Positions 7,408 through 60,854 of a stretch of DNA of 64,000 nucleotides are shown here, one piece after another (positions within the stretch are counted from its first letter, which is position 1; every line of letters starts with the position of its first letter). Source of the stretch: Cytauxzoon felis (lineage: Eukaryota; Apicomplexa; Aconoidasida; Piroplasmida; Theileriidae). Where the stretch lies: contig JAIQCW010000007.1 in the NCBI GenBank assembly GCA_020283715.1, positions 1 through 64,000 of the forward strand. The letters are read 5' to 3'. The notes beneath the pieces were generated by a model, which saw nothing but the letters and a program-made list of their open reading frames with translations, was not told the DNA's origin and searched no databases. The translations under genes and the position numbers were made by a program.

Positions 7408-10400
7408 ATGGGCATAGAAATGGATACGTTTGCCAATGATGATTCAGATTATGACGATATTGTATTTTTATAATGTCTATAATCATCACAATTACAGATG
7501 GACTCAAGATATTACTATAATGACGGGTACTCACCGACATTCAACCCAGATGATATGACAATCGCGCCATTATATTTAAATAATCAACAGAATCCATCAA
7601 ATTACAACTATAAAAATGGTAAGCTTGAAATGTGTATGTATAAATGTCTATGCCGCGGATTTTTACGCGGTATACGCTGAAGATCTGGATTCCATACAAT
7701 TTCTTCCATGGATTTCATCACAATATCCGAATTCTGTCTCCTTATATTCAGAAGATCTCTTTCAGCTTAAGGACCACTTATACCCTCCTTTCCACTAGGC
7801 GTGTTCCTCTTCCAATTACGTATCTCTAAAGAGTAAAACCACCCCCGGAGATCGTGGCGATGGTGGAGGTAGTGAGGATAAGACCTCAGGTGTACTACCC
7901 GCAGCTGATCTATGGGAAGCGGAGGGAGAAGTAAATAGAGGAAGCAATTTGCAAGACACGAAAGGTTATAGATAGTGTTTGGATATATCTCATGACATTG
8001 ACTCTTTAAATAACGGGGGAGGTGGATAATTTGGAGTAATGAAGGGATATTAGAAGAGTAGAAACAAAATGGGTTTCGACACACCAGTATATTTGGATAC
8101 CTATAAATTTGATGGTGGTGATATACCTGCTGCATTACGTCATAAAATTGCCATGTTCCTCACAGGATTTATAATGTTAACACCGCACAGAATTGCTGTA
8201 CTTTGTGCTCCTCATATCGTAAAGAGATTCCATTTGCCTCCATCTGTTGTTCCATTATTTATCTACAAGATACACAACCCTATGGAATTGGCCAGTTTTC
8301 TTGGAACAGTTATACAAGTTTTATTGTCCACACTATTCACTGCATTGTCAGCAAGTGAAGAGGTAAAAAAGAAATTAGCTGATGGTTGGAATGCTGGAAG
8401 TGATAGCACCAAACACGCAAATCATACTTCAAAATATACCGTTATGAAACTACAAGATTGTAAATACACATATAGACAAAGTGCTGGTGATACTAATAAG
8501 AGTGGTAAAAATCAAGACACTGATATCCCTGAAGATCATAGACCTGGGAACAACGATCATATGGCCAATATTCATCCTCCTAGTGGTAATAATATTGATA
8601 CCAAAGGAAACAAATGGCATGCTGATGTTGAAATTAGCACCGTTAAATTTTATTCTGGTTGGACTGGTGATCATGGGGATGCTGTTATAACTAATTGTAA
8701 GAGGGTTGCGTCTATTATATGTGGATGGATGATGTTTATCACCTCTATATTCACATTCATCTTCTTCATTTCCGGTGACGATTACGGATACTTGGGGCAA
8801 TTCTATTGGAGCGTTATTATTATGGCGTTCGCTAATGGTATCTACTCATCATTCTCCTTCGGTGTCAATGTTAATGCTGCCATATATGCCGTCGGTCTAC
8901 CCCTCTCTGGCTTCTTCACATTCGTCTTCCACAACTGTTGTAAATATTTATCAAATAGATTCAATTGGGAAGATTATGACTACACTTTCGTTAAATTATT
9001 AATAATCTCCACCATGTTTATTCAGTTTGTCACAGCCGCTTGGTGGACCATGGACCAAATATTACAACTTGGTGATGGAACTAGTACAAAAGCTGGTTCT
9101 ATCATGCCCAATAATTCATCCATTGGAGAATTATTCGGGATACCACGCAAGAAGATTAATAGTGGTTATACCGAAAATGATGATTATGATGCCCTACAAG
9201 CTTGGTCTCACTGGTCACCCATTTTAATGCTATCGATATCTCTAGGAACGGTCTATGCGTTCTATCCAGCTATAACGCCCTATCAGTTGATGGATGTTGA
9301 GGATGCTAATAATACTGATTTTTATATACAATTTATTTCTGCGATACCGACATTGGTTATTGGCGTATTAGATGAGGCCGGATCTGGCCCAGGTAGCAAA
9401 GATGGATTTGGTGATAATTGGTATGATAAACCTCAATGGAACTGTTTTTGGATTGCGGCTGTACCATATGTCTTATGCCTACACATCTTCATCACGATGA
9501 TACACTTTCCAGAGGGTTTCATTGCAACCTTTCTCCATTCCAAACCACGTTTATTACAAGCAATTTGTGTATCATTTAATTTCTGGCAGGAAATTTTAGA
9601 GATTGTAGGATTTTCAGCCGCAGGAAAACAAAGCAATCCAATGGCGGTTATTAAAATAAAAGCTGATGAAAGTGATCCTGATGAAGCTAGAGAACAGATT
9701 GCGTATAATGGACATGTGGGAATGGTTAATAACTTTTTATTTCTATTTACAATGGCTATTACGATGTTCGTAGGCGATGGGTATTTGATATTGGATAACT
9801 CCACAAAAATTTATATTGGGCATGTGGGGTTATTTATCCCTATATTATCATTAAACAACACTACATAATATCGATTCCCGAGGTATTTCCACTCGCCGTG
9901 GAGGCCTCTTCTATTTACTTCCCCTTCCAGCTCCCGTAGATCAGCTACGGGTATTCCACTTGAGGTCCAATACATACCTCTTCATCGCCACGATCTCCGG
10001 GAGTGGCTTTACTCTTTAGAGATGCGTAGTTAAAAGAGCTGACGGCAGGTAGAAGAGAGGTCGATATAAACTCGGTGATAATCTATGGATTTTATAAATA
10101 TATTTACGCGATTATAACATATATATTCTGTAACATTTATTTTCTTTAGAATATAATCGCATTACGGATGATGATTTAAAGAGATATAGAGATGAGCATT
10201 ATTATGATTCATATATGAAATTTAATATTTATGATAAATCATTATTCTTTTTATTACAAGTATGTTGGGGTTTTTAAATATTATATTACACCCCATTTAT
10301 CTATAAAGGCTGAATTATTTGTCCTTAAGAGACGTTGTAAAGAGGCATTATCAGCTACATTGATTGCTGAAGATTTAATAGGTGAATGTTTAACAACAAA

Positions 10401-10640: not shown

Positions 10641-10667
10641 AGAATACACTCTATTGAAATTATGTCC

Positions 10668-11130: not shown

Positions 11131-11201
11131 GTGTAGAGGATTGTACCATCTGTGATTTTCATCATTAAGCATTGAATACAATTGACATTTTCGGATTGAT
11201 A

Positions 11202-14200: not shown

Positions 14201-17200
14201 TTAATGTGGGGATTTTTATGTAGGGTGAATGTGGGGATACAGGTTTATTTCAATTATAGAATGTTGGGTTTTTTAAGTATTATGTGGCAAATTATAAATG
14301 TGGGGATAATCATATATAATATATATCAACTAACTTGTATTTTTTACATACACGTAAATCTTCTTCACCATAATAAGGCGCACAATGTACAATACCGGTA
14401 CCAGCATCGCTAGTAACCATTGAATCGGCAATAATAACATATGAATGTTGATGTTGCTCATTACTAAAGTTGGGATCATTAATAAAATAATTGAACAAAG
14501 GTTGATATCTTTTACCAACTAATTCATTACCGCTTAAAGTATCCAGAATTTTAACATCAAATTTTGTCGTCTGTTTAAAATATTCTAAACGGCATTCAGC
14601 TATAACAAGAGTTTTACAAAGTTTTTCAACATGAATTTTTACATATTTAAAACTTGAATTAACACACAAAGCCAAATTAGATGGCAATGTCCATGGTGTC
14701 GTCGTCCATGCCACATACTCCAAATCTTCATCAATAGATCTGTAGAAATATGAAGTTTAATGTGGATTTTGTGGGGGATGAGGATGGAATGATATGGGGA
14801 TAAATATGAGTTGTGGGGAAATAGGGGGTTGAAATATATGATGTATATTATCCTGGTGTAGTGGAAATGTATTTATTTTGTGGATAGATTGTATAAGTGA
14901 AGGTATGAAGGCGTATGAAGGATACTATTCCACCAAGCCATACATAATGATACAACTTTATATTTACATGTTTCAGATCATGTGGTGGATATCCATAATT
15001 CTGTGTATCACTAATCCATCTTTTACCGCATTTAAATGTGGAAGGCGTGTGAGATTTCATCCCCTCAAGGTATCCTTTTCGGTCATGGCATTAAGCTTAG
15101 ATGGAATTTTATCCTTTTCAGCAGCATCAGTTGGTAGACCTGTTGATGCATCTACATTCAAAGCCGAATGGTGTTCCCACTTCTTACCCTTGCCGTACCA
15201 ATAATTAGTACTACTCTGTTGATAATATAAAAGTAGGGGTGTGTTTGTATCATCCTTATGATAAAATATCCATACTTTATTATTTGCAGCAATAGTTATA
15301 GAGGGTTTCTCATTCCCCCTCAATGTTATATCCTGTCCAGAGTATCTAAATTTGACATCAGTAAGTTGACCTGTCGTATTGCTATGACTATATGCCACGT
15401 ATCCTGTAGGGACATTATCATCTGCACCCTCCTTCTCAACAGTAATTGTTTTCTGAGCAGCAATAGTACCAGTGGTATATTGTTTAGTAGTTGTATCTAC
15501 ACCAAAAGTGTCTGTCTTCTCTAAATGAATGACAGTTTCATTATTGGCGTCATCATTAAGTTTATCCAAGTGATATAAAAGTTCACTTTTACCCGCACCT
15601 TCAGGATCTCCATTAATACTAACTGAAGACCAATCTGTATTAGCAGCCTGCGCGGGATTATTATTTTTATAATATGTCCATGTAGTCCCTTTGATAGCTA
15701 TTAGCAACGGTTTATCATCATCTGTTCCTCCATAATATACATGAACATAATGGACATTATCTGCAGTAATAGCACCAGCAGCAGCATTTTGTAGAGGCTG
15801 AGTTCCCTTTTTAAGATTAGCAGTTTTCATTTTCTTATTATTCTTCAAATGATGAGAGTACCTCGTAAAGCCACCCCTGGGATTTCCCGAAAATTCCAAG
15901 ACTGTAACCTTTTCATTACCAGTTCCATATTCACTCTTCTCGTTAATTTTTATGTCAATAGCAGTTTGATGAGTTCCTGGACCAAAATTAATTCCGGGTA
16001 CTTCAGGACTCTTGGGTGGAATCAACGATTCATCCTCCAGTATCCAATAGAAAATAGTGCCTTAAGCTGAGTAATAGAGGTATCCTCATTAGCATCTGTA
16101 GGATTGTTCCAGCTACTAGTCCCATAATTATAATCGAGTTTCTTTACACTAAATAAACCTGTTGGAGTTATCTGAAGGAAATCAAACCCCTAATTCAAGT
16201 GCAGTCATAAAGTGATGTAATGATGAAACCAACAAGAAACATTGATACTCTACCCATCAACTTACGTACATAGTTAGATATTTCACTTTTAGGAGTTTGA
16301 TTATTACTTCCTCCAACAATCCAAGTCTTTATACCTACCATTTTCCTCCCATTTTCCAAAACCACACCAAAACAATACACCTCATACCTCTCTCAACCTC
16401 ATCAAAAATGTCAACACAAACTTACTTAAATGAAACAAAGAGTGCAGGATCTGTAACATTTTTGTAATTGAGATTAGCCTCAAAATTTGATACAGGTGTT
16501 GTACAAGCTAACGAATAAGGCATAACTTGAAATCCACGGTATATATATTCTTTTTCATATAACTTTTTAAATATCCACCATAATGTTTCCATATATGGTG
16601 TATGTAAAGTTTTATAGTCATTATCGAAATCTATCCAACGACCAACACGTGTTATAATGGCCTTCCATTCCTTACAATATCTAGTAACAATAGTTCTACA
16701 CTTTTCATTATATACATCGATACCCATTTTATGTACATCATCCAAGTGCTTTATATTATTCACCTTGTCAATTTCATGCTCTATAGGTAATCCATGACAG
16801 TCCCAACCAAATCTACGCTCAACATGATAACCACTTTGATATGCATATCTAGTAACAACATCCTAAAGGTAATATGAAGTTTATTATAAGAGTTTATAGA
16901 TGAAAGAAGTATAGTACTAAATCATAAACTATACAAATTTCAATGACAGCAGTAATTATAGATAATATCTGACTTCAATAGTCACATACCTTAACAGATC
17001 CAGCTAATATGTGACCATAATGCGGTAATCCGGTAGCAAATGGTGGACCATCAAAAAAAGTAAATGAAGGACGACCTTCTGATAACTTTAGAGATGTCTC
17101 AAATGCCTTAATATCATCCCAATACTTTAATATCTTTTCCTCCTCAAATGGAAAATTAACCTTTTCGTCAACTAATAAATAATAAATATATAAGCACTAT

Positions 17201-18977: not shown

Positions 18978-21900
18978 ATGACCGATTCTAATGATGAAGA
19001 TCTATCGCATACGGAAAATGAGAATGTCAGTACTCCTTTAAGAGGATTAGATTTAGATAAATTGTCCATTCAATACGGTGCTGAATATTATTCTTTGGTT
19101 GACGAAGAGGAGCAGAAGGAGATTGCTAAGCGCAATCTAGAAATGAGAGTTTGTTTGATAAATAGTCCATTTCATATGTTAAATTATATTTAGGATAAGT
19201 TAAAGTCATTTAATAAGAAGAACGATAAGAATAAAACAACTTTGAAGACTCAGAACTTCATAAAGATAGACACACAATCTAAATTGAGGAACGATGTACC
19301 CATTGGTATGTAAAATAGTTAATATCTTATTTAAATGATATTAATATAGCGGAGTCTATCGTATTAAAGGATATTTTGGGGCTTAATAAGTCTTACAATA
19401 AGTTGAAGACATTCAAGTTCCCTTACCTTGTAATGTTGGATATTGAATTGGGTAAAATGTTAGAATGGTTATCGCCTACAATCGAGGAGCGTAAAGCTAA
19501 ACAGGAGGTGAGTATACTGAAGTTGAATTGCGATATTATTATTTCCATTTAGGTTCTGATTCAATTGGAAATCGTTGTTACCGCTTTATTTCCAAAGGCC
19601 AAAGTAAAACCATTTGGGTCATGTATGTTAATATAACTATAATTATGCAATTAATTTATACAGATGTAACGGGTTTATCATTACCAGGAGCTGATATAGA
19701 TGTATGTATTGAAGTCGATGGACCCGAACTTGAAGTTTTAAACCTCGTTGTCTATTCGTTAAATCGGTTAGGTTTAGTACACTCCTTCGAATGTATTTAC
19801 AATACCAATGTACCCATTGTGAGGGTAGTTGATAAAAGAACAGGTACGTTCTCATTTTCCTCAAAATATGAGGGTTGGTGGATGGATTTTGTTATAACCG
19901 TAAGGATGTCTATTATTTCTTTAAATAACGGGAGGGATATAATTTGGAGTAGAGATGGAAAATAGAGTGCATATCAGAAATGAGTAGTCTAGATTGTGGA
20001 TCTGCTCATTCTGAATGCATAATAGAGAGTACACCCGAAGTATATCATAAACACGTAATTGAAGATTCTAAAGCCGGCGGTGGAATCAATGAGGATGAAG
20101 ATGATGATATTGTAAGATGGGTAATCATGACGGAGCTCTATGTCAGATATCAATGTTCCTAGCCGGTTTTATATTCTTCACACCTCATCGTATCGCAATT
20201 ACATGTGCAAATCACGTTGTTAAAAGGTATCATTTACCCTTGGGTACTGTTGCTATGTTTGTGTATAGAATACATAATTTAATGGAGTTAGGTAGTTTTG
20301 CCGGTACTGTCATAAATACAATAATAACGTTATCTTCAACTAAGATGGATCCGGATAGTAAAACGACTTTAAAGAATTGTATATCGGGTATATCTATTTG
20401 GCTAATGTTCATTTGGTCCATCATCACATATTTTTCATTCATGGCTGGTGGTGAATATGGATATTTTGGTGAATTCTTCTGGAATATTGTAATGCTTGTT
20501 TTTATTTATGGTGTGTATTCAAATTCTTCCATGGGTATTGAAGGATTGAACGCTCCATTTTATATTGTTGGCCTTCCATTATTTGGATTATTCACTTTTG
20601 TCTTCCATAAATTATATAAATATTTATATTATATTTATTTCTGGGATGAATATGATTATGTTCTTGTTCTCTACCAAATATCGATTATGATTATTCTATC
20701 ATTTGCAACATCTATTGTGTGGACGGTAGCTAGAGTGATGGATTCTACCTCATCATCTGATACCATCATTGATGCAAGTGTAGCACCTACTAATCATGAA
20801 TCTGGTAAAGAAGCTTTATATGGATCTGGAGCTAATCAAATTAAAGTTGAAAGGAAAAATGGTACACATGGTGGTAATGATGGAGTTCCAGATGGTTATG
20901 TTAGATATGAGCATAAATCTAAGGATACGAAAACTCCTACATTCACATTATGTTCCGTTAAATATAATGATATTCCGTTGACATTCAATCCACCTATTGG
21001 TGGAGCTCCCAATGTTCAAGCAGTTTATGTATATTATCGTGGGGATGGGCAAGACAATGATCACGAATTCCCATTGATAGTTTGTGTTAAGAAGTCTCCT
21101 ACAGAATGTACATATTATAAGAGAGGTAATACGTGGACATCTATAAGTGAACTTGATAATAAAGACCCGGAAACTTTACAACTAGTCACTACTGATCTTC
21201 AAAAACTTGGAGATAAACTTAATGATGTTAAAGACAAATTCGAAGTTAAGCTTGAGAAAACTAATGGTCAGACATACAAAGCAAGTCCACAAGCTGCCGG
21301 TAGTGATACAATTAATATTGAAGTAGTAAAACCTGATAATCAAAATTTTAAAGGTTTTAAACATAACATCACTGATAAAACTGTGAACCGTATGACTGTA
21401 CATGGACGAGCAATAATTGGTATTAATGAATTAGACAGTGGTGATAGAACTATATCTGGAAAACAATACGTATATGTATATTATTCAAAAACCGGTGATA
21501 ATAATCATGAAAAACCATATTTAATATGTTTACAAGACAGTAATAATAAGACGTGGTATAAACGTGTTAAGGAAGCTGGTCAATCGGGTGGATATATATG
21601 GACCGATGCAACTACCGAGATCGGCAGTAAAAATCCAGATCAAATTGACAATCTAGCAAGTGACCTCAACAGAATTAAAAGTGCACTTGATGGTTCTGGT
21701 ACTGACGATAAAGGTTATAAAAAACAAGAACTTGTTGTAAAATTGGATTATGCTGCAAAGAGTAATGTTAATACGGATACAATTACATATCGGACGGGCG
21801 ATAAAAAAGTTACTGTTTCACCAGTTGGACCGAATAATGGATATAAGGGTTATAAACATGATCTTGGCGAAAGAAAAACTATAGATAAAGTTAAAATACA

Positions 21901-24216
21901 TAATATTGACACAAAAATTACTAATGGTCTTCAAAACAAACAATACGTATATGTCTATTATGCAGACAGTGATGACAAGCTTCAAAAGCCATACTTGATA
22001 TGTTTATCTCCAAGTGGTACAACAGATCCTACCAATAAATGGTATAAACGTGAGAGGAAAAATAATGAATATATATGGAAAGATGTTTCTGCTGAAGATG
22101 GTTATGATAAAATAGATCCAGGTACAATTAATGATAAACTTAAAGAAAAACTCGGGACAATTAAAAGTAACCTTGGTACTGATAAAGGTTATACTCCATC
22201 AGCAGTAACTTCAAGTGATAAATCACAACCCAAAGGTCTATCACTTTTATTCGGTGTTAGTGATGATGGCCAAAAGTATCACATAATACACTGGTCCCCA
22301 ATATTTCTGGTAGCCCTATCATTAGGTACTGTCTATTTCTTCTATCCTGCTATATCACCCTATCAATTAGTTGATGATCCTTTTGATGGTAAAAAGATTG
22401 AATTATGGATCCAGGCTATTTCTGCTACACCCCATATCGCATTTGCTATAACTCAAATTTTTAAAAAAGGCCCAGGGAGACTTTGGACGAGTTATTATCA
22501 TGAAAATGGTAAAGGAGATTTGTATGCAATTTATCACGCTACATGGTTATTTTTTATCCCATATATAATATGTATATATATTTTCTTTTCTATGATGCAT
22601 TTCCCCAATGGTCGAATCGGTAAATACTTCAGGGCAAGTGTATTTAGAACTGGGGTTCTATGTGTATTCTTTGCCTGGGTACAGGAATTTATGGAAGCTG
22701 TAGGATTTGGTGGAGGTATGGGTGCACAAGTGAGTGGTAGATGTGGAGATACTTATAATGATGATGCTGGAACGATATTTGGATTTATGTTTCTTGTATT
22801 TATGACATTTTTCATGTTTACCGAAGATTTTGCATAAATTGTTGTTACTTTTAAATTATCCTACCACATATCACTTGATAAATACCTCACATTTAATTTA
22901 TAGGTACTCGTTTGGATTTATCTGTATCGCAGGATATGGCATATAAAACAACAGATTTTATAAAGGAGCAGGTAATTTGAATGTTATTTTCTGTGAATAT
23001 TTTATTTAGTGTTTAAAGTATAAATATTTGCAGCCTTTGGTGTTGTTAATAAAATTATTTCTTCAAACGAGAAACTTGGGAGATGTATATACGGGTGGAG
23101 TAGGATCGTATTTGTTGTATTGTATGGTGTTATCCTTTTTACAATTGCATGATAGTACATGTATAAAGGCTAGTGATAGTACTAATACATTGGCCACTTT
23201 GTATATCGATTTCTTTTATTATTGGGGTTTTATACGTGATTATGATCAATTCTCTACATGGTATTTAGATATCTTAGAGTAAAAAATATTTTTTACCTAT
23301 TAGTGTACGTGGATACGGTCATGTATTCCCGAGAAGATTGTGGAAGACCGACAATACCTCATTGTTATCATGTGAAAGTCCATTGGTATGATGAATTTTA
23401 TATAAATTTTATTCAATCAGGAACCAATGAATGATATCGGAAAAAATGCACATAACATGCACATCGTACGAGCCGTTTTCCAAAGAGCATTCATTGTACG
23501 TTTATATTCACCACAATTCATAATTCCATGACTTTCTTTATCCAACTGGGATTACCTCTACTACAACTTCCTTCCACTTACCGTTCCACCTGAGGTTGTC
23601 TTGCAGACAGCTCCTCTATTTATCTCCCCCTCCGCTTCCCTGAGATCAGCTGCGGGTTCCACTTGAGGTCCAATCCTCTACACCTCTGCCACGATCTCTG
23701 GGAGTGGCTCTACTCTTTAGAGATATGTAATTAAAAGAGCTGTCTGCAAGACAACCGCAGGTGGAACGGTGAGTGGAAAAGAGGTTGTAACCTCAAGTGG
23801 AATAATTATTTTGTTATTCATATTAAATGAATGTATAGATATTAAAGAGGGGTGAGGCGGATTTTAATAAATCTGTGATGCAGAATACATTTGCTTATAA
23901 GAAGAATAGGACATTATTGGAACTTCTGTATGACTGTGTGCATCCGATATTTCAGAATCGTAACAAAGGTGACAAGTGTAGCAATTTACGTAATACGTAT
24001 TTGTATGAATCACATAAGACTGACCGTAAAGTATTGAATAATGTTTGTGAAGAACTGAGAAGGGTTCTTGATAGTACAGCAAAGTATAAATTTAATGCTC
24101 AAAGACAGCTAATTGATTCACTTACGAGCAAGTTAAATAAATCGCAAGATGGTGATTTACCATTTTATATAATCGCTGAGAGTGTAGCAAATGATGAGAA
24201 TAATGACTCGAAATGA
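18978..24216 (+). CDS. non-canonical poly(A) polymerase, Trf4/Trf5 (PAPD5) type; hosts a nested gene
   Basis: Nuclear nucleotidyltransferase that adds short A tails to RNAs for surveillance (TRAMP-like). Exons: 18978-19148, 19194-19305, 19350-19507, 19553-19622, 19664-19843, 22904-22971, 23034-23278, 23304-23385, 23421-23495 and 23848-24216; phases agree, about 509 residues. The catalytic core reads [20 protein letters not shown], with the first two carboxylates in DID; the third is expected in TRLDLSV at the start of exon 6. The central domain is seen in [22 protein letters not shown] and in the [10 protein letters not shown] segment. Intron 5 (19844-22903, about 3.06 kb) separates the catalytic carboxylates and contains a complete same-strand membrane-protein gene. 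Intron 9 carries a modular repeat. Accurate removal of intron 5 is therefore essential for activity. Confidence 0.9.
19921..19955 (+). promoter_or_regulatory. shared upstream element of nested copy 2
   Basis: TTAAATAACGGGAGGG followed by ATATAATTTGGAGTAGAGA, 25 bp before the ATG at 19980. It matches the elements before the copies at 8069 and 59250, and lies in the host intron 78 bp after the donor site. Confidence 0.6.
19980..22837 (+). CDS. intron-nested membrane protein with three beta modules, copy 2 (intact)
   Basis: Two exons, 19980-20120 and 20147-22837, are separated by a 26-nt GT-AG intron and give 943 residues. Without splicing the frame starts at 20117 and loses the acidic N-terminus. 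Six membrane segments follow ([17 protein letters not shown] to about residue 245). Then a soluble region of about 500 residues holds three beta modules, each with the signature VYVYY...PxLICx...YKR...W. Then come five more segments ([42 protein letters not shown]). The last part of the module region is almost identical to DNA in GlnRS intron 4. The modules resemble T. equi hypothetical proteins and possibly FAINT-type domains, from memory only. Entirely inside intron 5 of the poly(A) polymerase, same strand. Confidence 0.87.
23568..23805. repeat. modular repeat array in poly(A) polymerase intron 9
   Basis: B-like, A, F, C, A, D, E, F' and A' boxes between the donor at 23496 and the acceptor at 23847. 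Sequence between boxes is short and variable. Confidence 0.87.
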
Positions 24217-28823: not shown

Positions 28824-31800
28824 ATGTTAAGACATGGTAGGAAATTGTTAACAAGACAGGTAACAGGTTCCATATATGACAAGGATGCTAAATTATCGGT
28901 GAAGGTTTATAATCTTCAAGAATATGCTAAATATAGACGTGATGTATTGGATATAAATTATAATAACATTAATGATTATAAATTGTTATTATCTGATGTT
29001 GATAAGAATATTAAAGATTCATCACCTGCGCAGTTATTGGCTACTGCGATAGCTTATAATCGTCTTGAGCATGTAGGAAAACATGAATGGAAGCGTTTAT
29101 GTACTGCGGCTTGCAGATTGGCGTATAAACCTCAATCGAATATTACTGGGATATCATCGAGTGAGGTATCGATGATATTATATAGTTATGCAAAGATGTT
29201 TACTACACAATTACCAGTGACTCAGAGGTTATTGAAATGGATAGTTCGTGATGTAGGAATCCTAAATGAGCGTGATGTATCTATGATTTTATATTACATG
29301 AGGCGTACAAATTGTATAGCGACGGATATTGATAATGAAGACCATTTACTACATGCTAAGATTTTACGATCGATTGTATTGGGATTATCTATACATGGAG
29401 GTAATAAATTGCATAAATATAGTCCAAGAAGTTTAGTGGCTGTAGTTTATAATATTGCTATCATGGGAATGATACCATGGTCACTTGTATATCATTCTTG
29501 TAATTTAATAAGGAAAAATATAAATGCATTGGATTTCAAGGCCATTGCTTTGCATACTAAATCTCTATCACTACTTAAACTTGATGATAGAAAGACTATT
29601 GAGGCTTTTACTACTATCCTCAATATGAAGTCTGAGGTACTTTTAACCCCTACAATCACATGTTTTTTATACTCGCTTGCTAAGCTCAAGTATAGACCCA
29701 AGAGTTGTTTATCGCAAATATTTCTACATATACAGAGGTTTATTTGGTAATTTCATTTTATATTATTGGCTATATAGGAAAATATTCTCATTTACCGACG
29801 GAGACGTTGCACAAATCGCCTATTCATTAGGCCAATTGGGATATAGAGATATCGAATTAGTCAAGAGCATTTCTAGTTTCATTGAGGTAATTTCATACCA
29901 TTACCCTCCATGAATTATCTGAAGAAGGATCTGAAGAACGTAGCGAGGAAGGAAGAATTTTCGACGAAGGAATTTTCTACAATGACGAATTTTCTTCCTT
30001 CTTCGGAGAAATTTCCTCCTTCCTCACTTCGTTCTTCATCTTCTTCATCCTCATACATCTTCTATAGTCTCGCATAGAGTATCAATCACCGCAGCATTTG
30101 GTGATGTTGATTCAATGTTATGCCCGTTTGGGTATAAATGATACGGTTGTAGATCTAATAGTCAATCAAAGTATAGAGTTGTTGGTAAGCGTAGAAAATT
30201 CTCATCATATATTCCCATATAGAATGGATTCACCTTTTCACAATTAATATCTTTAATGGATGGTTGTATAATTTTAAATTATTTTAAAAAAGATGTATTT
30301 AATATTTTATTAAATAAATATTTAACATTTACAATGGTATATTCCTATACATTTCTACATCATTAATAATTTAGGATGAGATACCAGAGTATATCATCAA
30401 TCAACTCAACCGTATAATGTATTCTTTAAGGCTTGAAGTTTGTTGAAGGTTAATCTTAAATTAATTATTAATAGAGACCTGATTTTGTAAATGAAAGTTG
30501 TTTCATTATAAAAAGCCTCATACATCAATTCCAAGGGTCATTTATATCAAAGGTCAGTTGAAGATGTTATTGGAATCACTTTTCTTCACCTATTGAGTAA
30601 TGTACATGAGAAGAAGATTGAAATGGTACAAGGAGATTAAAGTTTAATAGGGACTATAATACAGGTTGTATTAACATCTATAATTGCAGTTGCAACAGAA
30701 TTTTCCTATAAAAAGCCTGGTAGTAATGATGATAAAAATGGTAGTACTAATGGTACTGATCCAGTGTTATTTGGTAAAAGGGTCTATAGAGGACAAGATG
30801 CTGCAAAGAGTGATAATCATAAAAATGTATCATCTACTTGATAAAATTGACTAGTTCCCATAATATTGCCAGATTATAAATGAAATTATAGGATATACTG
30901 ACATTAATATACCAAATGATCAACCAACAAATGAAAATTATAATCTTGCACCAGCCATTATAACTGGTACCTATAATATCAATCAATAGATCCCGAAGTC
31001 CAATCCTACTTTTTACCACCTTATCTTCGTCTTGCAGACAGCACTCCACTCGAGGTCTTTCCACTCGCCGTTCCACCTGAGGTTACCATCCACTTTCCTT
31101 TGTCTTGCAGACAGCTCTTCTAATTACATCCCTCTAAAGAGTAAAGCCACTCCCGGAGATCGTGGTAGTGAGAAAGGTAGTACAGGACCTCAAGTGGACT
31201 ACCCGCAGCTGATCTCAGGGAAGCGGAGGGACAACTAAATAGAAGGCTCCACGCCTAGTGGGAAGACCTCAAGTGGAGAAGAGCTGTCTACAAGACCAAG
31301 ATAAGATGGAGAAGATAAGGTTGTAACCTCTTGTAGAAATTTATTTATGAGTTATTTTTATTCCATATTGAGCTATATAATCCTGGAAATTTTCTAGTGT
31401 TGATAACTTGTGTTAAATACCGACACTTGTAATAGGATTCTTAGATGAATTTAACCTAGGCCCTGGCGGTATTAGCTCTGGGATTTGGGGGAAGTTTGTG
31501 AATAAAGATGGAGTTGATGTGAAGGTGGCGGTTTGTAGAGAATTAGAGAAACTAAATCAACATATGAATGACAAAGTAAATTACAAAACTAAAACCAGTA
31601 GTGAATCTATTCCTTATGCTGGTAGTGCTTTCAAAACTAATGTTGACAACGCTAGAAATAAGGTTGATCCCAATGCACCAGCTCCTAATCTTGTACAAAA
31701 TGCTACTGATCTGAAAAATGCCCTAAAAGGTAGCGGTGAAATAAAATTGGTTGTTGATGACTGGAATGATACTATTCAAAATATTGGTACTCAATCTAAA

Positions 31801-46161: not shown

Positions 46162-46210
46162 TATTTTTTTAAAATATATATCTAATATATACATGTATAC
46201 ATATATCAAA

Positions 46211-48109: not shown

Positions 48110-51100
48110 TTATTTATTCTTCTTAGCTAGACGATTCGCTTTAGCTTCTAATCTTTTCATCTTCTCCAATTCTTTATGCTTGCGTACCTCTTCTGACTTA
48201 TCAAATGAATCCACAAGGGTAATCGTCAGATTGAAAATCGTTTCATCATCTGTAGAATCTGGATCCTTAGTGAAATAACCAACACGTTCGAATTGTATCG
48301 GATCACCAACATTTAATTTTATAGAGTCCTTCTCAGCATAACCTTTATAGATCTTTAGCGAGTCTTGGTTGATATGTTTGAGCCATCCTAAATCACCTTC
48401 TATATCTTCCATTGGATCAGCTTTTGTAAATAGGCGTGAATACCATCGGAATGTGACAGCAGCACAATCATTAATAGGTAACCAATGAATAGCTGCCTTG
48501 GCTTTCCTACCGTCTGGTGGAGCTGTACCTCCTCTAGTATCAGGATCATAAGTACATATGATTTTTACAATATCATCACCATTCTTAATTACCTACAAAT
48601 ATAATATTTTACATTAAAAGTGCGTAAAATGAAATTGTACATCGAAGATTTATACCGACGAAGTCTAAGTCGATGAGTTGCAGTCAATCTGAGGTTACCT
48701 CTACCAACGGTCCAACCTCTCTTCGTCCTGCCGTCAGCTCTTCCAATTCACTCCCCGTAAACGGTAATGCCACTCCCGGAGATCGTGGCGAAGATGGGGG
48801 TGTAGCAGAAATAGCCTGGATACATAATTCAATCTTTTTACCATCAAAAGGATCATCAACTAATTGATAGGGTGATGTAGCAGGATAGAAGAAATAGACA
48901 GTACCTAATGATAGGGCTACCAGAAATATTGGGGACCAGTGTATGATGTGATACTTTTGGCCATCATCACTAACACCGAATAAAAGTGATAGACCTTTGG
49001 GTTGTGATTTATCACTTGAAGTTACTGCTGATGGAGTATAACCTTTATCAGTACCAAGGTTACTTTTAATTGTCCCGAGTTTTTCTTTAAGTTTATCATT
49101 AATTGTACCTGGATCTATTTTATCATAACCAGTTGTCTCTTCCTGCCATGTAAGACCGGGGTTACGTTTATACCATTTATTCTTCTGACTGTCACCTGCG
49201 GCACCCTCCTGAGATAAACATATCAAGAGAGGTTTTTCTAGTTCAGGGGTATCACCACTCAGTGGAAAATATACAAATACACCTCCATTAGCATCAAATG
49301 TCAAATTTTCAAACGCGCTATCAGGAATTCCATTCGTCACATGACCGTGTATTGTAATGCGATTTATCTTTTCATTAGCAGGAATAGTATGTTTAAAACC
49401 TTTATATTCAGCTTGAGCACCAACATCTTGAGTTTGTTCCTGTACTGGTGTAACAGTAACTTGTTTATTACTCGTCCGATATGTAATTGGCGTTGTACCC
49501 TTGGCAGCGTAATCCAATTTTACAACAAGTTCTTGTTTTTTATAACCTTTATCACCGGGAGGAAGTGCACCGCTAATTCCTTGGAGTTTTCCTTTAAGAG
49601 CAGAACCAATTTGATTATTAGAGCCTCCTGGATCTATAGTACCATAGTCACCTGATACATCTGTCCATCTATTATTTGTGTTACGTCTATACCATTTATT
49701 AGTGGTATTAGCTGATTCACTCACAGCCAAACATATCAATAACGGTCTTTCATTTTTACTATCATCATTTTTAAAATATACATATACGTATCGTTTTCCA
49801 GTAAACCCGGTACCATCATTTAACTCTTGTATACCCTCTATTGCGTGTCCATGGATTGTTATTCGATTTATAGTGGCACTAGTAACTTTAAGATCGTGTT
49901 TAAAACCTTTAAATTGAGTACCACCTTTTTCCTCATTTACTGCTGCAGGAGTAATATTCCCAGTACCATCAGGAGTTGATTTGTATGGATTTCCAGGGGT
50001 AGAATCAGTTTTTTCAAGTTTAATTTCGTATTTATTGATGAGTGTAGTAAATTCAGTTTGAAGTAGAGTATCAACTCCGGTTGCCTCAGGGCCTAAATTT
50101 ATTTCAGGCACATTCTTCCACGTATTCCCTCTCTTATAGTACGTCTGACTATCTGATTTCTTAACACATACAATTAATGGAAATTGATGATCAGAATCAC
50201 CAGCTTGATGATAATATACATAAACCGCTTGAACTTCTGTACCAGTTATTCCATTCAATACTTGATCGTTATGTTTAACGAGGCCTAATGTGAATGGAGT
50301 AGTTCCACTAACAGGTTTATGATCAAAACGAACATAACCTTGTGGGACATTTGGATCGTTACCATCCTTCTTTTCAACTTTAAATTGATTAGATCCAGAT
50401 CCATAATGAGCGCCGTTTGTAGCATTTTCTTGAGTAGGTGTTACACTTGCATCAATATCAATAGATGCTGATGGGTTATAACCTGTATCATTATTAAGAC
50501 CGTTTTTAATTCCATTGAGGTTAGTTTCAAGTGCAGTAATATTGTTTGGATCATCCGTAGCGCTAAACCCCGTATGTTCGTTCCATGTATATCCACCACC
50601 AGATTTATTCTTACGTTCATACCATTTATTACCAGAACTTTGGCCACCGGTGTCAGATAAACATATTAAGTACGGCCTTTGAAGATCACTATCATTGTTC
50701 GCATAATATACGTATACGTATTTTTTACTTGAAAGATGAGCATCCTGAATACCATTTAGAGCTTGACCATGTATAGTGATGCGATTTATATTCATAGCAG
50801 TAGTATCTTGCCTATGATGTTTAAAACCTTTATAAGAGGTACCATTAGATGGTACGTCTGTAACAGTAATATCTTGATCAGGTGTCTGAGGTCGTGCTTT
50901 GTATGTTGCAGTGGGTTGATGAGTTTTTTCGAGCTTAACTTCATATTTAACTTTGAGACCATCAAGATGACCTTGAAGTTGACTAGTAGCAGTATCTTGC
51001 TCTGGATTTACATTCAGATCTGGTATTTGCTCCCACGTATTCCCTCTCTTATAATACGTCTGACCATTGGTACCCTTATAAACACAAACAATTAATGGGA

Positions 51101-54100
51101 ATTCATGTGCAGTATCATTAGTACTCTCATAATATACGAAAATTTTAGATACAGTCTGTCCTACAGATACATCGACTTCTTTCAACTTATTTCCATTGTG
51201 TTGAAGTATAATTTTATTTTTGCCAGTAATTGAAACTTGATGCTCATATGCTATGTATCCATCAGGTACTTTGTTACTAGATGAGCCAGAGTTATACTCA
51301 GTCTTCTCAACTGAGACATCAATACCTTTCGTTCTATACTTAATCTTTTTATCTACACCAGTATTCTGGGGTCTCTTGTCTAATTTAATTACATAATCGG
51401 TACCGGGAATATTAATTGTTCTAGCATTAGCTGCAGTGAGGTCTTGAGAAGTAACCGAATTTGATGTTCCAGATTTAGCACTTGAGGTCCAATGACTAAT
51501 CTTCGCCACGATCTCTGGGAGTGGCTTTACTCTTTAGAGATAGGTAATTGGAAGAGCTCTCTGCAAGAGGAACACTGGTTGTAACCTCAGATTGAGAGTA
51601 ATTCTTAGACTTCGTCGTTATAAATCTTCAATGTACAATTTCATTGTGTTAAAACAAACCTCTTTGCATTTGATCCAATAAGAGTGTAATAATCTGACTT
51701 CATTACCGGGGAATAGTCGATAGAATCCATCTTGTGGTACATGATTGAAATCTTTGGAATCGATATAAAATCTTTTATTAAATTTAACCTGAAGATGAAT
51801 GAATAAAATAAAAATTACATACAGTACGTGTATTATCATTAAATTTATTTTTTAAAATGACATCTTCTTCTAAATCTTCAGGATAATTTTCTAATTCTAC
51901 CAATAAAGGATGGATTACAGCAAAGAAACGTTTAGAAATTTTGTTCATACATTCACTATAGAAATTAATTATATAGGAAAAAAAAATTTTCAATTTAATT
52001 TTTAAAACTTACCGTATACAATTTTCTAATAATTCTATTTGAATATAATTTTCTCTCTTTGCTACACCAATTTTATTACAAAATAATCTCAATGATTCAG
52101 CAGGACAACCCCTACGTCTAAATCCAGATATAGTAGGCATCCTTGGATCATCCCAACCATCAACTATCTTATTATTCACCAAATGCAATAACAATCTATA
52201 GAAATTATAATTAAATACATATTAAACAACTCCACTCGAGGTACAATAGACATCTCTTCGTCTTGCAGACAGCTCTCCACTTGAGGTCCTTCCACTCGCC
52301 GTGGTGGCCTACTCTATTTACTTCCCCCTCCGCTTCCCGTAGATCAGCTGCGGGTTCCACTTGAGGTCTAGTACTACGCATCCTTAGCACCATCTTCCAT
52401 CATTCCCATGATGGATGATCCATCACTACCTTCACCACGATCTCCGGGAGTGGCTCTACTCTTTAGAGATAGGTAATTAGGAAGCTGTCTGCAAGACCAA
52501 CAGTGGTTGTAACCTCAGGTGGAAGAGAGTTGGACTGGACCTCGAGTGGAGCGTGGAATTTTCTTCGTAAAAATTTTCTCCGCCTTTGGCGGAGGTTTTG
52601 TTTGCCCTTCGGGTAAAGTCACTCCCGGAGATCGTTGAATGTTGAAGTTTTGAAATTAATTCTACCAGATTCATTTCCATCATGTAGAAATGGTCTATAA
52701 TTATTCCGATTAGAATTATATATCGCATCATATGGTTGTGGATTCGTGTATGTTACTTTACGTTTAAATGCTGCAAGAATAGTACCATTAGAATCACTAG
52801 AATCTTTAGTAGTATTACTGGTGTCCTTTTTAACTGTATTTGTCGCATCATTTTGTATTTGCGCTCCTGCGCCTGAAAATCCTATGGTTTCTAACCATTC
52901 CTGGGTTATGTGGAGAAGTTTGTAATCCAAATGATGCAGCCAACATTCCTATAGGCGACCAGTCATAAAGATGACTAACCAAATCAGCATTACCTCTATT
53001 AGTACTATCTGCATATTTACTAAATAATTTTAAAATGCCCTTGTTGCCAGCTTCTATAGTTTGATCAGGATCAGAAGCATTCTCCTTCTTCTTTGTACCA
53101 TAACCGCGGTTATCTAATGTTCCAAGTAGAATTGGAGTTAAAATTTATGGACTTTATGGGTAAAATTAATAGAAATTGCAATATTATAGCACTAGATATC
53201 CAACCAATGGTAATGTTAAGTTAATCAGTTCATTTTCAAGTTTAGTATTATTTTTATTAGGAGCATCAGTAATGTTGGTGTCTTGTTTCCATTTAGTCGT
53301 ATCAACGTATGGATTGTAAAGGAGACCCTCAGGTTTATAGTATTTATATTCCTTTCCAGTACCAGCACTGTCATCTTTCGCTACGCATATTATAATCGGT
53401 CTGTCTCCAAAGAAGTATACATGAACATAATGGACATTATTTTCTGTAATATCTTCACGTTGACCGCTACCACCACCAGGATTTGGCTTAGTGAGGTTAT
53501 CGTTTCCCTTTTTAAGTGTGGCGGTACCGATCTTTTTATATTTATTAGTATCACCCTGTACTTTATGTGTATAACGTGTATATCCAAACTTGGGATTATT
53601 ATTTTTCAGAAAGACTTTAACAGTTTCACTTCCACTACCAGCGCTATATTCATTATTCTTTTGATCAATTTTTATTTCAACATTAGAAGCATCAGTCTGA
53701 TCTTTAGAGGTTAGAGTATCATTTCCATCAGCTGGATTAGGATAACCTGTATCTGGATTAAGTGCACCTTTAATTTCACCGAGTTTATCTGCAAGTCCGG
53801 AAATATTGGTTGGATTTTTACTATCAAGACCAGTTGCAGTGTTCCATGTGTAAGGATAGGTTCCCGTACGTTCATACCAAGTGTTTCCAGTAGCATTACC
53901 ATTTGGAGATAAGCATATCAACAGAGGCTTGTGTAGTTCAGGGTTACCCTCTTTCAGTGGAAAATACACAAATACACCTCCACCAGCATCAAATTGCTGA
54001 CTATCAAGCACAGTTTGAAGAATACCATCCGTAATATGACCGTATATTGTTATCCGATTTACATTGCCAGAAGAAATAGCATGTTTAAAACCTTTGTATT

Positions 54101-55609
54101 TATTATCACTATCAGGATTTACTGTTGAAACATTAATTTGATCAGTACCACTGGGATAAGGACGTGCTTTGTAACCAGAACTGGTGTTATTCCATTCAAG
54201 CTTAACTTCGTATTTTTCAGCGATTCCAGGAAGGTGTCCATTCAGCTCTCTAGCAGTTCCGGCAGGATTACCGAAATCAATAGCAATTTGCGTATTATTT
54301 AGTTCAACTTTATCTTGTGTATCGCGTATATCCATAATTATCCTTCATTAACTTAGAAAACTATATTATTCCTTCAACACATAACTGATCTCTGAGAACA
54401 AAAACAGAGAAAATTTTATAAAGAAAATTCTACTCTCCACTCAAGGTCCAATCCAACTTTTCTTCCACTCGGCGTGGAGCCTCTTCTATTTAATTCCCCC
54501 TTCGCTTCCCTGAGATCAGCTGCGGGTTCCACTTGAGGTCCATTCACTATCATCTACTTTTCCACTCGCCGTGGAGGCCTTCTTATTTACGTCACCTCGA
54601 CTCCCATAGATCGTCTCGGATACTTTGCCACGATCTCCGGGAGTGGCTATACCGTTTAGGGGAGGTAATTGGAAGAGGCCTCCACGGCGAGTGGAACACT
54701 GGTTGTAACCTCGAGTAGAATTATTTTCATGTTAAATTCATACCTTTTGCTCATGACATAGTATGTGAGATTGAGTCTTGCGAATTCGATTTGTCTAGTT
54801 TTGGTAATATTGAGTTTATCTTGTAGCCAATCATATAATGGTCGATGTAATTCGAATTCTGTTGTACATATAGAATGTGTAATACCTTCAATACTATCTG
54901 ATTGTCCATGTACAAAATCATATGTTGGATAGATAACCCATTTATTAGATGTATTATGATGATGTGTATGTAAGATTCTATATAAAATAGGATCTCTCAT
55001 ATTCATATTATTAGATGACATATCAATTTTAGCTCTTAATACACAATAACCATTTGGATATAAACCATTTTTCATATTAATAAATAATTTTAAATTTTCA
55101 TCTATAGTACGATTTCTATATGGTGATTCAATACCATTTATTAATAATGTACCCCTATTTTTTTTTATTTCATCTATAGATTGATTATCAACATATGCTA
55201 AACCTTTTTTTATTAATATTATAGCCCATTCATATAATTTATCAAAATAATTTGATGCATAATATAAATGATTACCCCAATCATATCCTAACCATTTTAT
55301 ATCATTTTTTATTGATTCTATATATTTTTTATCTTCACATAATGGATTTGTATCATCAAATCTTAAATGTGTTCTACCACCAAATTTTTTTGATAATTCA
55401 AAATTTAAACATATCGATTTTGCATGTCCTATATGTAAATAACCATTAGGTTCTGGTGGAAATCTTGTTATTATTTCTTTATGTTTACCATTCTTTATAT
55501 CAGATTCTATTATCTGTAATATAAAATTCGTATTCAAATCCATATCCATCTTTATACCATATCTCAAATTACTCTTAGATAATCCACGTATACTAGATAT
55601 TTTAATCAT
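48110..55609 (-). CDS. QARS: glutaminyl-tRNA synthetase; hosts two nested gene remnants
   Basis: Class I synthetase for glutamine. Exons 55609-54744, 52195-52013, 51955-51823, 51788-51660 and 48592-48110 join in phase and give about 597 residues. HIGH is present in [16 protein letters not shown], the Gln-binding region in [13 protein letters not shown], and the KMSKS equivalent is VMSKR (exon 1/2 junction). Exons 3-5 form the anticodon-binding beta barrels and end in a Lys-rich tail (LAKKNK). The first ATG of the open frame is at 55609; the frame extends further up without ATG. Introns 2 and 3 are 57 and 34 nt, but introns 1 (2,548 nt) and 4 (3,067 nt) each contain a truncated membrane/beta-module gene on the same strand, bordered by modular repeats. 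Confidence 0.94.
48690..48800. repeat. modular repeat array at the 3' border of the GlnRS intron 4 remnant
   Basis: A-like, F variant, E' and D' boxes. The array cuts the nested reading frame in TM8 (after IQAISATP), so it marks the truncation point; the frame then runs on through the repeat to a stop at 48684. Confidence 0.85.
48801..51477 (-). pseudogene. truncated nested gene with five beta modules, in GlnRS intron 4
   Basis: A continuous open frame (51509-48684, 941 codons) without a proper start: its first codons lie in a modular repeat and the first in-frame ATG is deep inside. It encodes five beta modules (signatures include [40 protein letters not shown] and [20 protein letters not shown]), then TM7 ([20 protein letters not shown]) and YQLVDD, and is cut in TM8 by another repeat. 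TM1-TM6 and TM9-TM11 are absent. The last 330 bp or so are nearly identical to copy 2 (22105-22435). The frame is intact and recently homogenised, so it may act as a donor for gene conversion rather than being expressed. Confidence 0.75.
51478..51600. repeat. modular repeat array at the 5' border of the GlnRS intron 4 remnant
   Basis: A, D, E, F-like and A' boxes, between GlnRS exon 4 and the start of the module array. It replaces the N-terminal membrane block seen in intact copies. Confidence 0.86.
52225..52640. repeat. modular repeat array in GlnRS intron 1, with a perfect GC hairpin
   Basis: A, F, A, B, C, A, D, E, F' and A' boxes, then at 52578-52594 a perfect stem CTCCGCC/GGCGGAG with a TTT loop followed by GTTTTGTTTG, then a last D'-like fragment. 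It borders the truncated nested gene. Confidence 0.86.
52619..54337 (-). pseudogene. truncated nested gene with beta modules, in GlnRS intron 1
   Basis: An open frame at 54335-53184 encodes two full beta modules and part of a third ([35 protein letters not shown]). After a stop, a second stretch reads [17 protein letters not shown] (TM7 start) and jumps, with a frame change, to [14 protein letters not shown] (TM10), so TM7-TM9 are deleted. The TM1-TM6 block is absent. Same strand as GlnRS. Not expected to yield a membrane protein; the module part could be translated only if separately transcribed. Confidence 0.75.
54430..54725. repeat. modular repeat array at the 5' end of GlnRS intron 1
   Basis: A, B, C, A, B, C-like, D, E, B' and A' boxes immediately after the donor site of GlnRS exon 1 (54743). 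With 52225-52640 it brackets the nested remnant. Confidence 0.87.
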
Positions 55610-56778: not shown

Positions 56779-56859
56779 GTCTAATATTATACACATAAAT
56801 TGTACATTTCATACATTGTAAACATACCTTAAATCCATCAGCATTCTATTTATCTCAAT

Positions 56860-57480: not shown

Positions 57481-57560
57481 GAACTAACATATATAAATAT
57501 TAAATATAATAAATTCACGACTTGTGTGATTAAAAGTGGGCTGCGATGAGTACTATTTGA

Positions 57561-58546: not shown

Positions 58547-58679
58547 TTTAAAGACAAAATGAATTAAAATCTTTAAATTTCAATTTGATTATTTACACAT
58601 TAACAACTCTCCTCCCCTTTGTATATATACAGATCTTACATCGAACAAAGGTCACTATAAAATTTAAATTTAAATATAT

Positions 58680-60854
58680 ATGGAACATAAAAAAATTACA
58701 GATTATGATTTATTAAAGAAACACTATACATTTTTAAATGATCAGGTTTATTAATCTTGAAATGTTTTTATTGTCTATTACTTTATATAGGATGATGGTT
58801 CATGGGAATCTAACCTCGTATCTTCATACCATGAATCATTGTTCAAGGAATATGCAATTTGTGATTTATCGTCTTATAAAAGTGGCAATGTAAGATTTTC
58901 AGGACTTTTTTTTAATTTTTTAGATCGGTCTGAGGTGGAGAACAGCAGAAGAAGTAATTAGTGGGAAGTGCGAAAAAATATGCTCCAATGTTGCTTGTAA
59001 TGAACACGTAGGGCTCAAAAGCTACGAACTTCTTTTTAATTACATTGAGAATAACCAGAAAAAAGAGGTATGTTTAAGGACCTTTGACGTTCATGGACGT
59101 GACATACGTGAAATTGATGTTATTATCCGACTTTATCATTTTTGGATGGCTTCCTTGGCTTTAATCACTGTAATGTACATCTGTAAATAACGGGAGGGGA
59201 TCAATTTGAGTAACATGGAAGGATTTAAGAAATAGAAGGGAAACAGAAGATGGTAGGGAAAAAAACGTGGTTTCCACCAGATACTACTAATCAATATGCC
59301 GGGAAAATTGTTGGTAATAGGGACGGTCGTAAGTGGATGGGTAGAATTTCCATGTTTATTGCTGGTTTTATAATGCTTACTCCACATAGAATTGCTATGA
59401 CTTGTGCTCCTCATATTCTTAAACGTTATCATCTGCCACCAGATGTCGTTGGACTGTTTATATATAAGATCCATGCTCCTATGGAGTTGAGTGGATTAGT
59501 CGGTCAGTTGGTCACAAATATTATAGCCTGGACAGTTAGAGCATCATCGGCTCCAAGGTGGATTTTCAGAAGCTTCTCTATTGTATCTGCCTGGTCAATG
59601 TTTTTAAGTGGAATTCTATCATTCATTTTGTTATATTCCGGTGATGATTATGGACATTTTAATTATTTTTTCTGGAGTATCATTCTATTGACGCTTACAA
59701 ATGGTCTGTATTGTTCCTCCACTTTCAAATTAGAAGGTTTCATTGCATCAATGTACGGTGCTGGTATACCATCATCCGGATTCTTTACGTTTTTCCTTCA
59801 TAAATTTTGTAAATTGAAATCCAAGAGAGATGGTTGGACTGATTTTGACCGCAGTATTTTATTAATACAATATTGGGTCACTGTAATTACATTAGGGCTA
59901 ACCACTATATGGTGGACCATCGATATTGGATTTGATATATATGATACGCAAACAATCGAAGGAGATGCCAATACTAGTGGTACCGATGCCTATACTAAGG
60001 CTATCGATTTTGGTAGAACACAAAATGATCGTAGAAAGGAAGATGGGAACAAAGGCATTGGCAAACTGTTTATACGCAAAACTGAACCTCTAAATAAAAA
60101 AAATCCTACTGCTCCCCTTAAAGATACTGGGCATGCCGCTGATTGGTCTCCTATATTCATGTTAGCTACATCACTCGGTTCTGTATACTTTTTCTATCCT
60201 TCGATCAGTCCGTATCAACTGGTAGATGAGGTTATTGGAAAGAAAATTGATTTATGGGTTCAATTTACAGCGGCTATCCCGAATTTCGGCGTCGCTATAT
60301 TGGATATTATTGATGAAACAGCCGGTAAGGAATGTGGACCAAGTGGCAAACACTGGTTTAGAGATGATAATGGTAATAGTGGTCATAAACGTTATGATTT
60401 ATGGCATCTCTCCTGGTTGGCGATTATACCATACCTATTGTGCATTTTTATCTTCATATCGTTGATGCATTTTCCCGATGGTTGTATTTCAAAAATCATC
60501 AATGGCAATCCTATAGTTATTGGGCTCATTGGTAATACCTTCAATTTCTTCCAGGAATGCTTGGAATCAATAGGATTCGCAGGGGCCGGTGGCCAGGGTA
60601 CCCGAGAACCCAATTCAGCTTGGAATGAACCCACTGGTAGTTCTGGTACTCTTAAAAATGATTTCAATGACGACATAGCCGCATTTAACGTCTTATTCAC
60701 GTATATTTTTATGGTCATATCCATGTTTTTTTGGCATCGTGTTTATAAAAATTTCATTCACCCATCTATTCTATAGACATTGGTCAAGGTTTGTGTATGT
60801 GCGGAATGTTCGGTAAAATTAAAAGAGGGTATAAAAAGGAAGAAGATTACATGA
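58680..60854 (+). CDS. FRA10AC1-family protein; hosts a nested gene
   Basis: Small nuclear protein of the FRA10AC1 family (spliceosome-associated in other eukaryotes). Exons 58680-58745, 58791-58889, 58924-59067 and 60777-60854, all phase 0, give 128 residues. Matches in order: DDGSWESNLVSSYHESLFKE, YAICDLSSYKSG, LRWRTAEEVISGKCEKIC, GLKSYELLFNYIE and, in exon 4, LVKVCVCAECSVKL, which restores the second Cys pair of the zinc-binding region. Introns 1 and 2 are 45 and 34 nt. Intron 3 (59068-60776) is 1,709 nt and contains a complete same-strand membrane-protein gene, whose last base is the last base of the intron. Confidence 0.87.
59182..59215 (+). promoter_or_regulatory. shared upstream element of nested copy 3
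   Basis: TGTAAATAACGGGAGGGG followed by ATCAATTTGAGTAACATGG, 35 bp before the ATG at 59250. It corresponds to the elements at 8004 and 19921. Confidence 0.6.
59250..60776 (+). CDS. intron-nested multi-pass membrane protein, copy 3 (intact, no beta modules)
   Basis: 508 residues, one exon. Eleven hydrophobic segments: TM1 ISMFIAGFIMLTPHRIAM, TM3 WSMFLSGILSFILLYSG, TM6 YWVTVITLGLTTIWWTI, a short hydrophilic loop (about residues 235-295), then TM7 DWSPIFMLATSLGSVYFFYP, YQLVDE, TM9 WLAIIPYLLCIFIFISLM, TM10 with FFQECLESIGFAG and TM11 FTYIFMVISMFF. This is the compact form of the family and defines the shared frame. It lies in intron 3 of the FRA10AC1-type gene on the same strand. The stop codon TAG (60774-60776) also provides the host splice acceptor AG. 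Substrate unknown; the 6+5 layout suggests a transporter. Confidence 0.87.
   Translation: MVGKKTWFPPDTTNQYAGKIVGNRDGRKWMGRISMFIAGFIMLTPHRIAMTCAPHILKRYHLPPDVVGLFIYKIHAPMELSGLVGQLVTNIIAWTVRASSAPRWIFRSFSIVSAWSMFLSGILSFILLYSGDDYGHFNYFFWSIILLTLTNGLYCSSTFKLEGFIASMYGAGIPSSGFFTFFLHKFCKLKSKRDGWTDFDRSILLIQYWVTVITLGLTTIWWTIDIGFDIYDTQTIEGDANTSGTDAYTKAIDFGRTQNDRRKEDGNKGIGKLFIRKTEPLNKKNPTAPLKDTGHAADWSPIFMLATSLGSVYFFYPSISPYQLVDEVIGKKIDLWVQFTAAIPNFGVAILDIIDETAGKECGPSGKHWFRDDNGNSGHKRYDLWHLSWLAIIPYLLCIFIFISLMHFPDGCISKIINGNPIVIGLIGNTFNFFQECLESIGFAGAGGQGTREPNSAWNEPTGSSGTLKNDFNDDIAAFNVLFTYIFMVISMFFWHRVYKNFIHPSIL

Follow-up and report, generated by a model that had tools for sequence, protein, structure and literature searches.

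The first 64,000 nucleotides (nt) of contig JAIQCW010000007.1 of Cytauxzoon felis (GenBank assembly GCA_020283715.1; positions 1-64000, hereafter the window) raise the question of why genes for a multi-transmembrane protein family lie inside introns of conserved genes, and why they lie there on the strand of the host. The first-pass annotation had placed seven copies in introns between positions 7408 and 60854, three intact and four decayed, all read in the host direction. These claims hold. At the positions first given, a GT donor and an AG acceptor delimit all seven introns (7/7), family pieces lie on the host strand inside each of them, and the copies at 8069, 20117 and 59250 are open. The orientation result extends to all 23 introns resolved across the genome. 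The introns, nested genes and 5' elements of the window are:

7619..10149, plus strand: intron of a gene spanning 7408-10700; GT...AG, open joined frame, intact copy inside
8006..8039, plus strand: 34-nt 5' element of the copy at 8069; matrix match 36.3 bits
8069..9868, plus strand: nested family gene, intact, 600 codons including the stop; open frame
14740..16425, minus strand: IleRS intron with a decayed copy (pieces 16198-16392, 15060-16061 and others); Pfam exons, GT...AG
19844..22903, plus strand: intron of a Trf4-type polymerase gene with an intact copy; sub-threshold Pfam, GT...AG, joined frame
19919..19952, plus strand: 34-nt 5' element of the Trf4-nested copy; 36.8 bits
20117..22837, plus strand: nested family gene, long repeat-bearing form; open, with an upstream coding piece at about 19980-20110
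30438..32358, plus strand: intron of a RAP-domain gene with a decayed copy (family matches at about 30443-31995); Pfam exons, GT...AG
48593..51659, minus strand: GlnRS intron 4, copy without the N-terminal block; open reading frame (ORF) 48687-51533, its end entering mosaic repeat
52196..54743, minus strand: GlnRS intron 1 with a decayed copy (pieces 52622-54344); GT...AG
59068..60776, plus strand: FRA10AC1 intron with an intact copy; Pfam, GT...AG, joined frame
59181..59214, plus strand: 34-nt 5' element of the FRA10AC1-nested copy; 26.2 bits
59250..60776, plus strand: nested family gene, intact, 509 codons including the stop; open frame

In IleRS, PF00133 is matched over 50-186 before the intron and 184-411 after it. 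GlnRS intron 1 splits the catalytic domain PF00749 (2-249, copy, 249-307), and PF20974 comes after intron 4; the closest PDB chain to this GlnRS by sequence is 4p2b, from Toxoplasma. The RAP host shows a weak DUF6832 match before its intron and the RAP domain after it, and the copy inside, missed by the first queries, was matched by other family members (E-values down to 2e-27). FRA10AC1 is matched by Pfam over 54-104 before the intron, after which the joined frame runs on into a Cys-x2-Cys stretch; its 3' splice acceptor is the TAG stop of the nested copy itself (60774-60776). The Trf4 assignment combines a sub-threshold palm-domain match before the copy with a joined frame judged by eye. A Pfam search of the exons around the 7619-10149 intron returned no match.

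Sense-only orientation of nested copies

Outside the window, 40 stretches with about 1.5 kb of flank were surveyed, together with eight loci of a divergent subfamily (subfamily 2). Fourteen of the 40, holding 15 introns and 18 copies, are nested in sense, two look intergenic, eight lie beside a convergent neighbour and 16 are without assignment; no nested antisense copy is shown among them. The 15 census introns, the seven of the window and one at C162:128k (coordinates only) give a resolved total of 23 introns and 26 copies, spread over 21 different hosts. These introns were graded by the strength of the host assignment:

Tier a, curated Pfam cut-off passed on both sides (8 introns): GlnRS introns 1 and 4, IleRS, DEAD-box C85, DEAD-box C162, ArgRS second intron, Acatn, WD40
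Tier b, weaker Pfam or joined frame (8 introns): ArgRS first intron, AP endonuclease, Josephin, MutL, NOP9 (two copies in one intron), ABC transporter, FRA10AC1, RAP
Tier c, partly by eye (7 introns): Trf4, SWI3-like, POLA2-like (two copies), adaptin, COG3-like, a second RAP-like gene on C79 (two copies), window gene 7408-10700

In the eight tier a introns, exons on either side match one and the same protein above curated cut-offs, and the flanking domains stand in consecutive profile or gene order, as in the second ArgRS intron (PF00750 91-258, copy, 262-349) and Acatn (138-265, copy, 406-481). In tier b, the AP_endonuc_2 host reads 52-102, 153-167, copy, 169-248. For two tier c hosts, adaptin and the COG3-like gene, Pfam matches the left side only, and weakly so in the latter.

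Every resolved intron (23/23) and every copy in them (26/26) is in sense. Against a 1:1 expectation, the one-sided probability is 1.2e-7 for 23/23, 1.5e-5 for 16/16 and 0.0039 (2^-8) for 8/8. A strict sense-only orientation of nested copies is supported wherever the host is settled.

A search blind to the flanks of family copies gave the same picture. DEAD and Helicase_C pieces that follow one another in separate open frames leave 20 gaps; the two gaps above 1 kb (1,961 and 4,966 bases) both hold a same-strand family copy, and the remaining 18, of at most 956 bases, hold none. Searches with kinase, WD40, class-I synthetase and ABC domains, with coordinates compared by eye, produced no antisense case. 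Nor did a re-check of 22 stretches for antisense hosts among ORFs of at least 34 codons, done by eye and leaving out four stretches without assignment.

The mosaic repeat that is interspersed in the same DNA serves as a control for orientation. Its modules in the 14 nested stretches lie 49 in sense and 24 in antisense, and modules M1/M2 within the window host spans 13 and 9. The family count of 26:0, which includes copies sharing one intron, differs from 49:24 at a Fisher p of 0.0003; counted by introns (23:0), p is 0.0006. Since some of the counted modules sit in exons, where they tend to sense, the intronic contrast is probably larger.

Copies outside introns

It had also been claimed that no copy lies in free intergenic DNA. 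This stands for the window and fails genome-wide, given the two intergenic stretches, the eight copies beside convergent neighbours and the divergent subfamily, for which no host was found in 8/8 loci. The census of location and strand that the first-pass annotation had proposed as a check shows no antisense nesting, with 14 of the 40 stretches nested and 16 without assignment. It does not establish that introns are favoured in themselves, many copies being intergenic or without an assigned location.

The two intergenic stretches, judged by eye, are C94:152k, after a Sec24-like stop, and C38, whose head-to-head arrangement with its neighbour led us to reject a rule by which all copies would follow a gene on their own strand. 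The convergent neighbours were named by Pfam at C17, C27, C103 and C130, and were recognised by eye or are nameless at C33:97k, C94:162k, C147 and C152. The C130 copy was considered as an antisense copy inside RPA1 and rejected, as RPA1 seems to end ahead of it. An antisense nesting of the divergent subfamily in convergent neighbours was ruled out in 4/8 loci (L070, L072, L074 and L076), where the neighbour's C-terminal domain or open frame stops short of the copy; in the other four the neighbour's end was judged by eye or is not settled. Hosts were first sought among ORFs of at least 58 codons, and a codon-usage score was abandoned for its poor separation of coding from non-coding sequence.

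A large and old membrane-protein family

The copies belong to a large, dispersed multi-transmembrane gene family, many members of which are nested in introns of unrelated housekeeping genes. With three queries merged, at least 119 locus groups were found across many contigs, at least 82 of them with membrane-block matches. Two membrane blocks surround a variable middle, which carries repeats in the long forms; a simple hydropathy scan, crude and threshold-dependent, predicts 4, 9 and 6 transmembrane segments in three window copies. Sixteen of 35 copies of one type, here called TPHRIA-type, have 404-535 codons. In the long forms at 20117-22834 and 48687-51533 the middle is built of repeats, and one long copy returns 142 genome matches. 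A Pfam search of the family gave nothing above cut-off, a profile of 19 family sequences matched no PDB chain, and no homologue scored when one copy was compared with 5.8 billion proteins. An AP2 domain adjoins one family copy; like the closeness of the GlnRS to chain 4p2b, it agrees with an apicomplexan origin.

The copies are old: their identity at four-fold sites is 0.46-0.70, with neutral sites near saturation. Repeated seeding, as first suggested, agrees with the 21 different hosts and with the relationships of paired copies. Two copies per host occur in ArgRS (C101), the POLA2-like gene (C120:56-60k), the NOP9-like gene (C144:18-21.6k) and the window GlnRS; among BLAST neighbours, both copies in ArgRS, in the POLA2-like and in the NOP9-like gene have closer relatives elsewhere, which argues that some hosts were entered more than once. 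The suggestion of a mobile gene that targets introns is without support, and no mobility enzyme was noticed.

The unit common to the copies begins at about -70 and ends with the stop, short of the splice sites. Copies as a source of host introns, also proposed at first, are therefore unlikely, with the caveat that neutral sites are near saturation; for the same reason the sharp unit ends were not relied on as insertion ends. Introner-type elements are a known case of many insertions associated with introns. They would be expected to supply the splice sites and to make introns homologous from end to end; the unit found here is unlike them a protein gene that falls short of the splice sites.

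A 34-nt element at the 5' end

Most TPHRIA-type copies carry a 34-nt element with the consensus CTTTAAATAACGGGAGGGGGATAATTTGGAGTAA, 54-72 nt ahead of the ATG; in the long form it lies farther upstream, ahead of a short coding piece. A matrix built from 32 elements and run over 276,540 bases on both strands at a threshold of 14 bits gave 44 matches at 41 sites (three are doubled by one base). Forty of the 41 sites lie at 5' ends of family copies and cover all 35 TPHRIA-type starts examined; as the hits are mostly training members, the informative part is that hits elsewhere are missing. A pattern search of the whole genome gave 38 matches compared with 0 in a reversed control, and for 34 of these a listed family locus follows within the next 1 kb (exceptions C33:14.9k, C98, C121 and C168). 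By these searches the element appears private to the family. At C33:14882 (plus strand) it stands ahead of a short frame, MSDKSSVTRQ..., whose likeness to the family is limited to the start; this frame may be a truncated relative, or the element may serve another gene as well.

Between -62 and 0, identity is 0.51-0.97 over 17 pairs and exceeds that of four-fold sites in 16 of them, which suggests constraint. Coding identity (0.70-0.82) is likewise above four-fold-site identity.

The 3' side

The first 150 nt past the stop were compared in two sets of pairs whose protein identities are much alike (medians 0.64 and 0.61). TPHRIA-type copies have a median 3' identity of 0.47 (range 0.35-0.91, 118 pairs; control 0.43), as against 0.83 in subfamily 2 (21 pairs). 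All seven subfamily 2 copies compared (L070-L076) carry a TGCC-N4-GGCA hairpin 80-89 nt past the stop, with constant stems and varying loops, compared with 0/25 TPHRIA-type copies. In nested copies the distance from the stop to the host acceptor can be short: 0 nt in FRA10AC1, 20 nt in Josephin and 66 nt in Trf4.

A proposed own start and host end, and the alternatives

As an explanation of sense-only nesting we tentatively propose, at somewhat less than an even chance, that nested copies produce transcripts with their own start and the host's end. Transcription of each nested copy would begin at its own 5' element, and the transcript would finish on host sequence, with the downstream exons and the host polyadenylation site; the host mRNA would drop the copy along with the intron. 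Lacking an end, a copy would work only upstream of a same-strand 3' end, and antisense copies would not be kept. Finishing on host sequence would make sense orientation obligatory. In a wider form the family would retain only the first half of a transcription unit, a start element plus coding sequence with no end of its own, with many copies inside introns of essential genes, finishing on host downstream exons or polyadenylation sites, obligatorily in sense, and with expression tied to that of the hosts; taken as a whole, this is possible and rather doubtful.

Several observations weigh against the proposal. The 14 nested intact TPHRIA-type copies have a median 3' identity of 0.46 (31 pairs) and the 11 intact ones not shown nested 0.47 (24 pairs), so that the missing common flank marks the type and not the nesting. 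Some pairs do share 3' sequence: four of the 31 nested pairs reach at least 0.6, up to 0.82, and one other pair reaches 0.91. A short or fast-evolving polyadenylation signal would equally show no conservation. In subfamily 2 both flanks are conserved, so that its 3' end could stem from a recent segmental duplication or from gene conversion. The intergenic TPHRIA-type copies (2/40), one of them the head-to-head copy on C38, and those beside a convergent neighbour (8/40) must end their transcripts otherwise.

In an alternative reading, nested copies are complete units with unconserved 3' ends of their own, antisense copies being lost through collision or pairing with the host transcript. Non-nested TPHRIA-type copies, equally devoid of a common 3' flank, must end somehow; the 5' element stands at all 35 starts examined, and the sense-only count of 23/23 introns next to a repeat of mixed orientation is also what this alternative would give. 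The FRA10AC1 intron, on the other hand, leaves no room for a 3' end, and biases elsewhere run the other way: according to PMC3192792, human nested genes are opposite in strand to their host in about 63% of cases and single-exon in about 41%, and interference from L1 inserts was stronger in sense than in antisense. We regard complete units as a real possibility that falls clearly short of probable.

Orientation could instead be fixed if the mosaic repeat served as a recombination anchor and its direction set that of the copy. Modules occur throughout the window and often abut the family unit immediately upstream of the 5' element. Orientation through a flanking repeat is nonetheless improbable, because the repeat lies both ways in the same host stretches (49 and 24; 13 and 9 in the window spans). 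Insertion through an RNA step, by reverse splicing or retroposition, would yield sense copies by itself and would fit the mostly single-ORF genes, the sharp common unit and the absence of antisense copies. The seven window introns showed no common sequence at their splice-site ends, inspection by eye of the listed copies revealed no poly(A) tract after the stop, and retroposition is biased to sense only if RNA is the target, all of which makes this route very improbable. A sampling effect, with antisense hosts overlooked or flanking exons taken from different genes, could draw on the seven of 23 hosts assigned partly by eye, the 16 of 40 stretches without assignment and the 58-codon limit of the first host search, and is hardly credible given the eight introns with above-cut-off domains in consecutive order on both sides, the C162 helicase found by family searches blind to flanks, and the antisense re-check of 22 stretches.

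Relation to known families and nested genes

By description only, the family is like Tar/Tpr of Theileria annulata and T. parva, a large, partly dispersed membrane family. The available text of PMC10730637 and PMC4413850 gives 39 to 42 copies in T. parva and 93 in T. annulata, 'dispersed in small arrays', and describes integral membrane proteins with a conserved C-terminal membrane block and otherwise variable parts. Tar/Tpr members are recognised by an HMM match to a conserved C-terminal domain of 245 residues. Intron nesting, as found here, is not mentioned for Tar/Tpr in these texts: 'intron' occurs 0 times in PMC10730637, and the intron passages seen in PMC4413850 concern other families. 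Family 3 of Theileria equi, which is present on every chromosome, counts 109 members of about 50 kDa and is about 30% similar to Tar (PMC3505731), is comparable in size to the TPHRIA-type copies of 404-535 codons; the passages seen on that family, unlike our observations, make no mention of introns.

Animal nested genes share the placement of a gene within another gene's intron, whereas all resolved copies here lie on the host strand and belong to a single family. This orientation, opposite to the human trend, yields a concrete hypothesis at the RNA level. A literature search, with subscription papers mostly outside it, turned up no report that we recognised of a piroplasm gene family inside introns. 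Descriptions of large variable membrane families in parasites usually place them near telomeres or in tandem arrays; a family spread through introns of housekeeping genes, in sense wherever resolved, would let variable genes share the protection and the transcription that essential genes enjoy. Gene predictors are at risk with such loci, and would split hosts or fuse copies to them.

Mosaic repeat and neighbouring features

The mosaic repeat consists of reusable modules, some near-palindromic, found in introns, between genes and inside ORFs throughout the window. Examples are:

4213-4257, minus strand: mosaic repeat
25868-25912, minus strand: mosaic repeat
45232-45276, plus strand: mosaic repeat

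In three long ORFs the M1/M2 modules are all in sense (7/7) and, by eye, in the same reading frame (..YLSLKSxATPGDRG..). Modules within ORFs are reminiscent of the palindromic elements inserted in bacterial genes.

Near the family copy at C120:15-18k lies a pair of tRNA-Ser genes with anticodons aga and cga (L027:869-950 and 1113-1194, minus strand; C120:14.3-14.7k).

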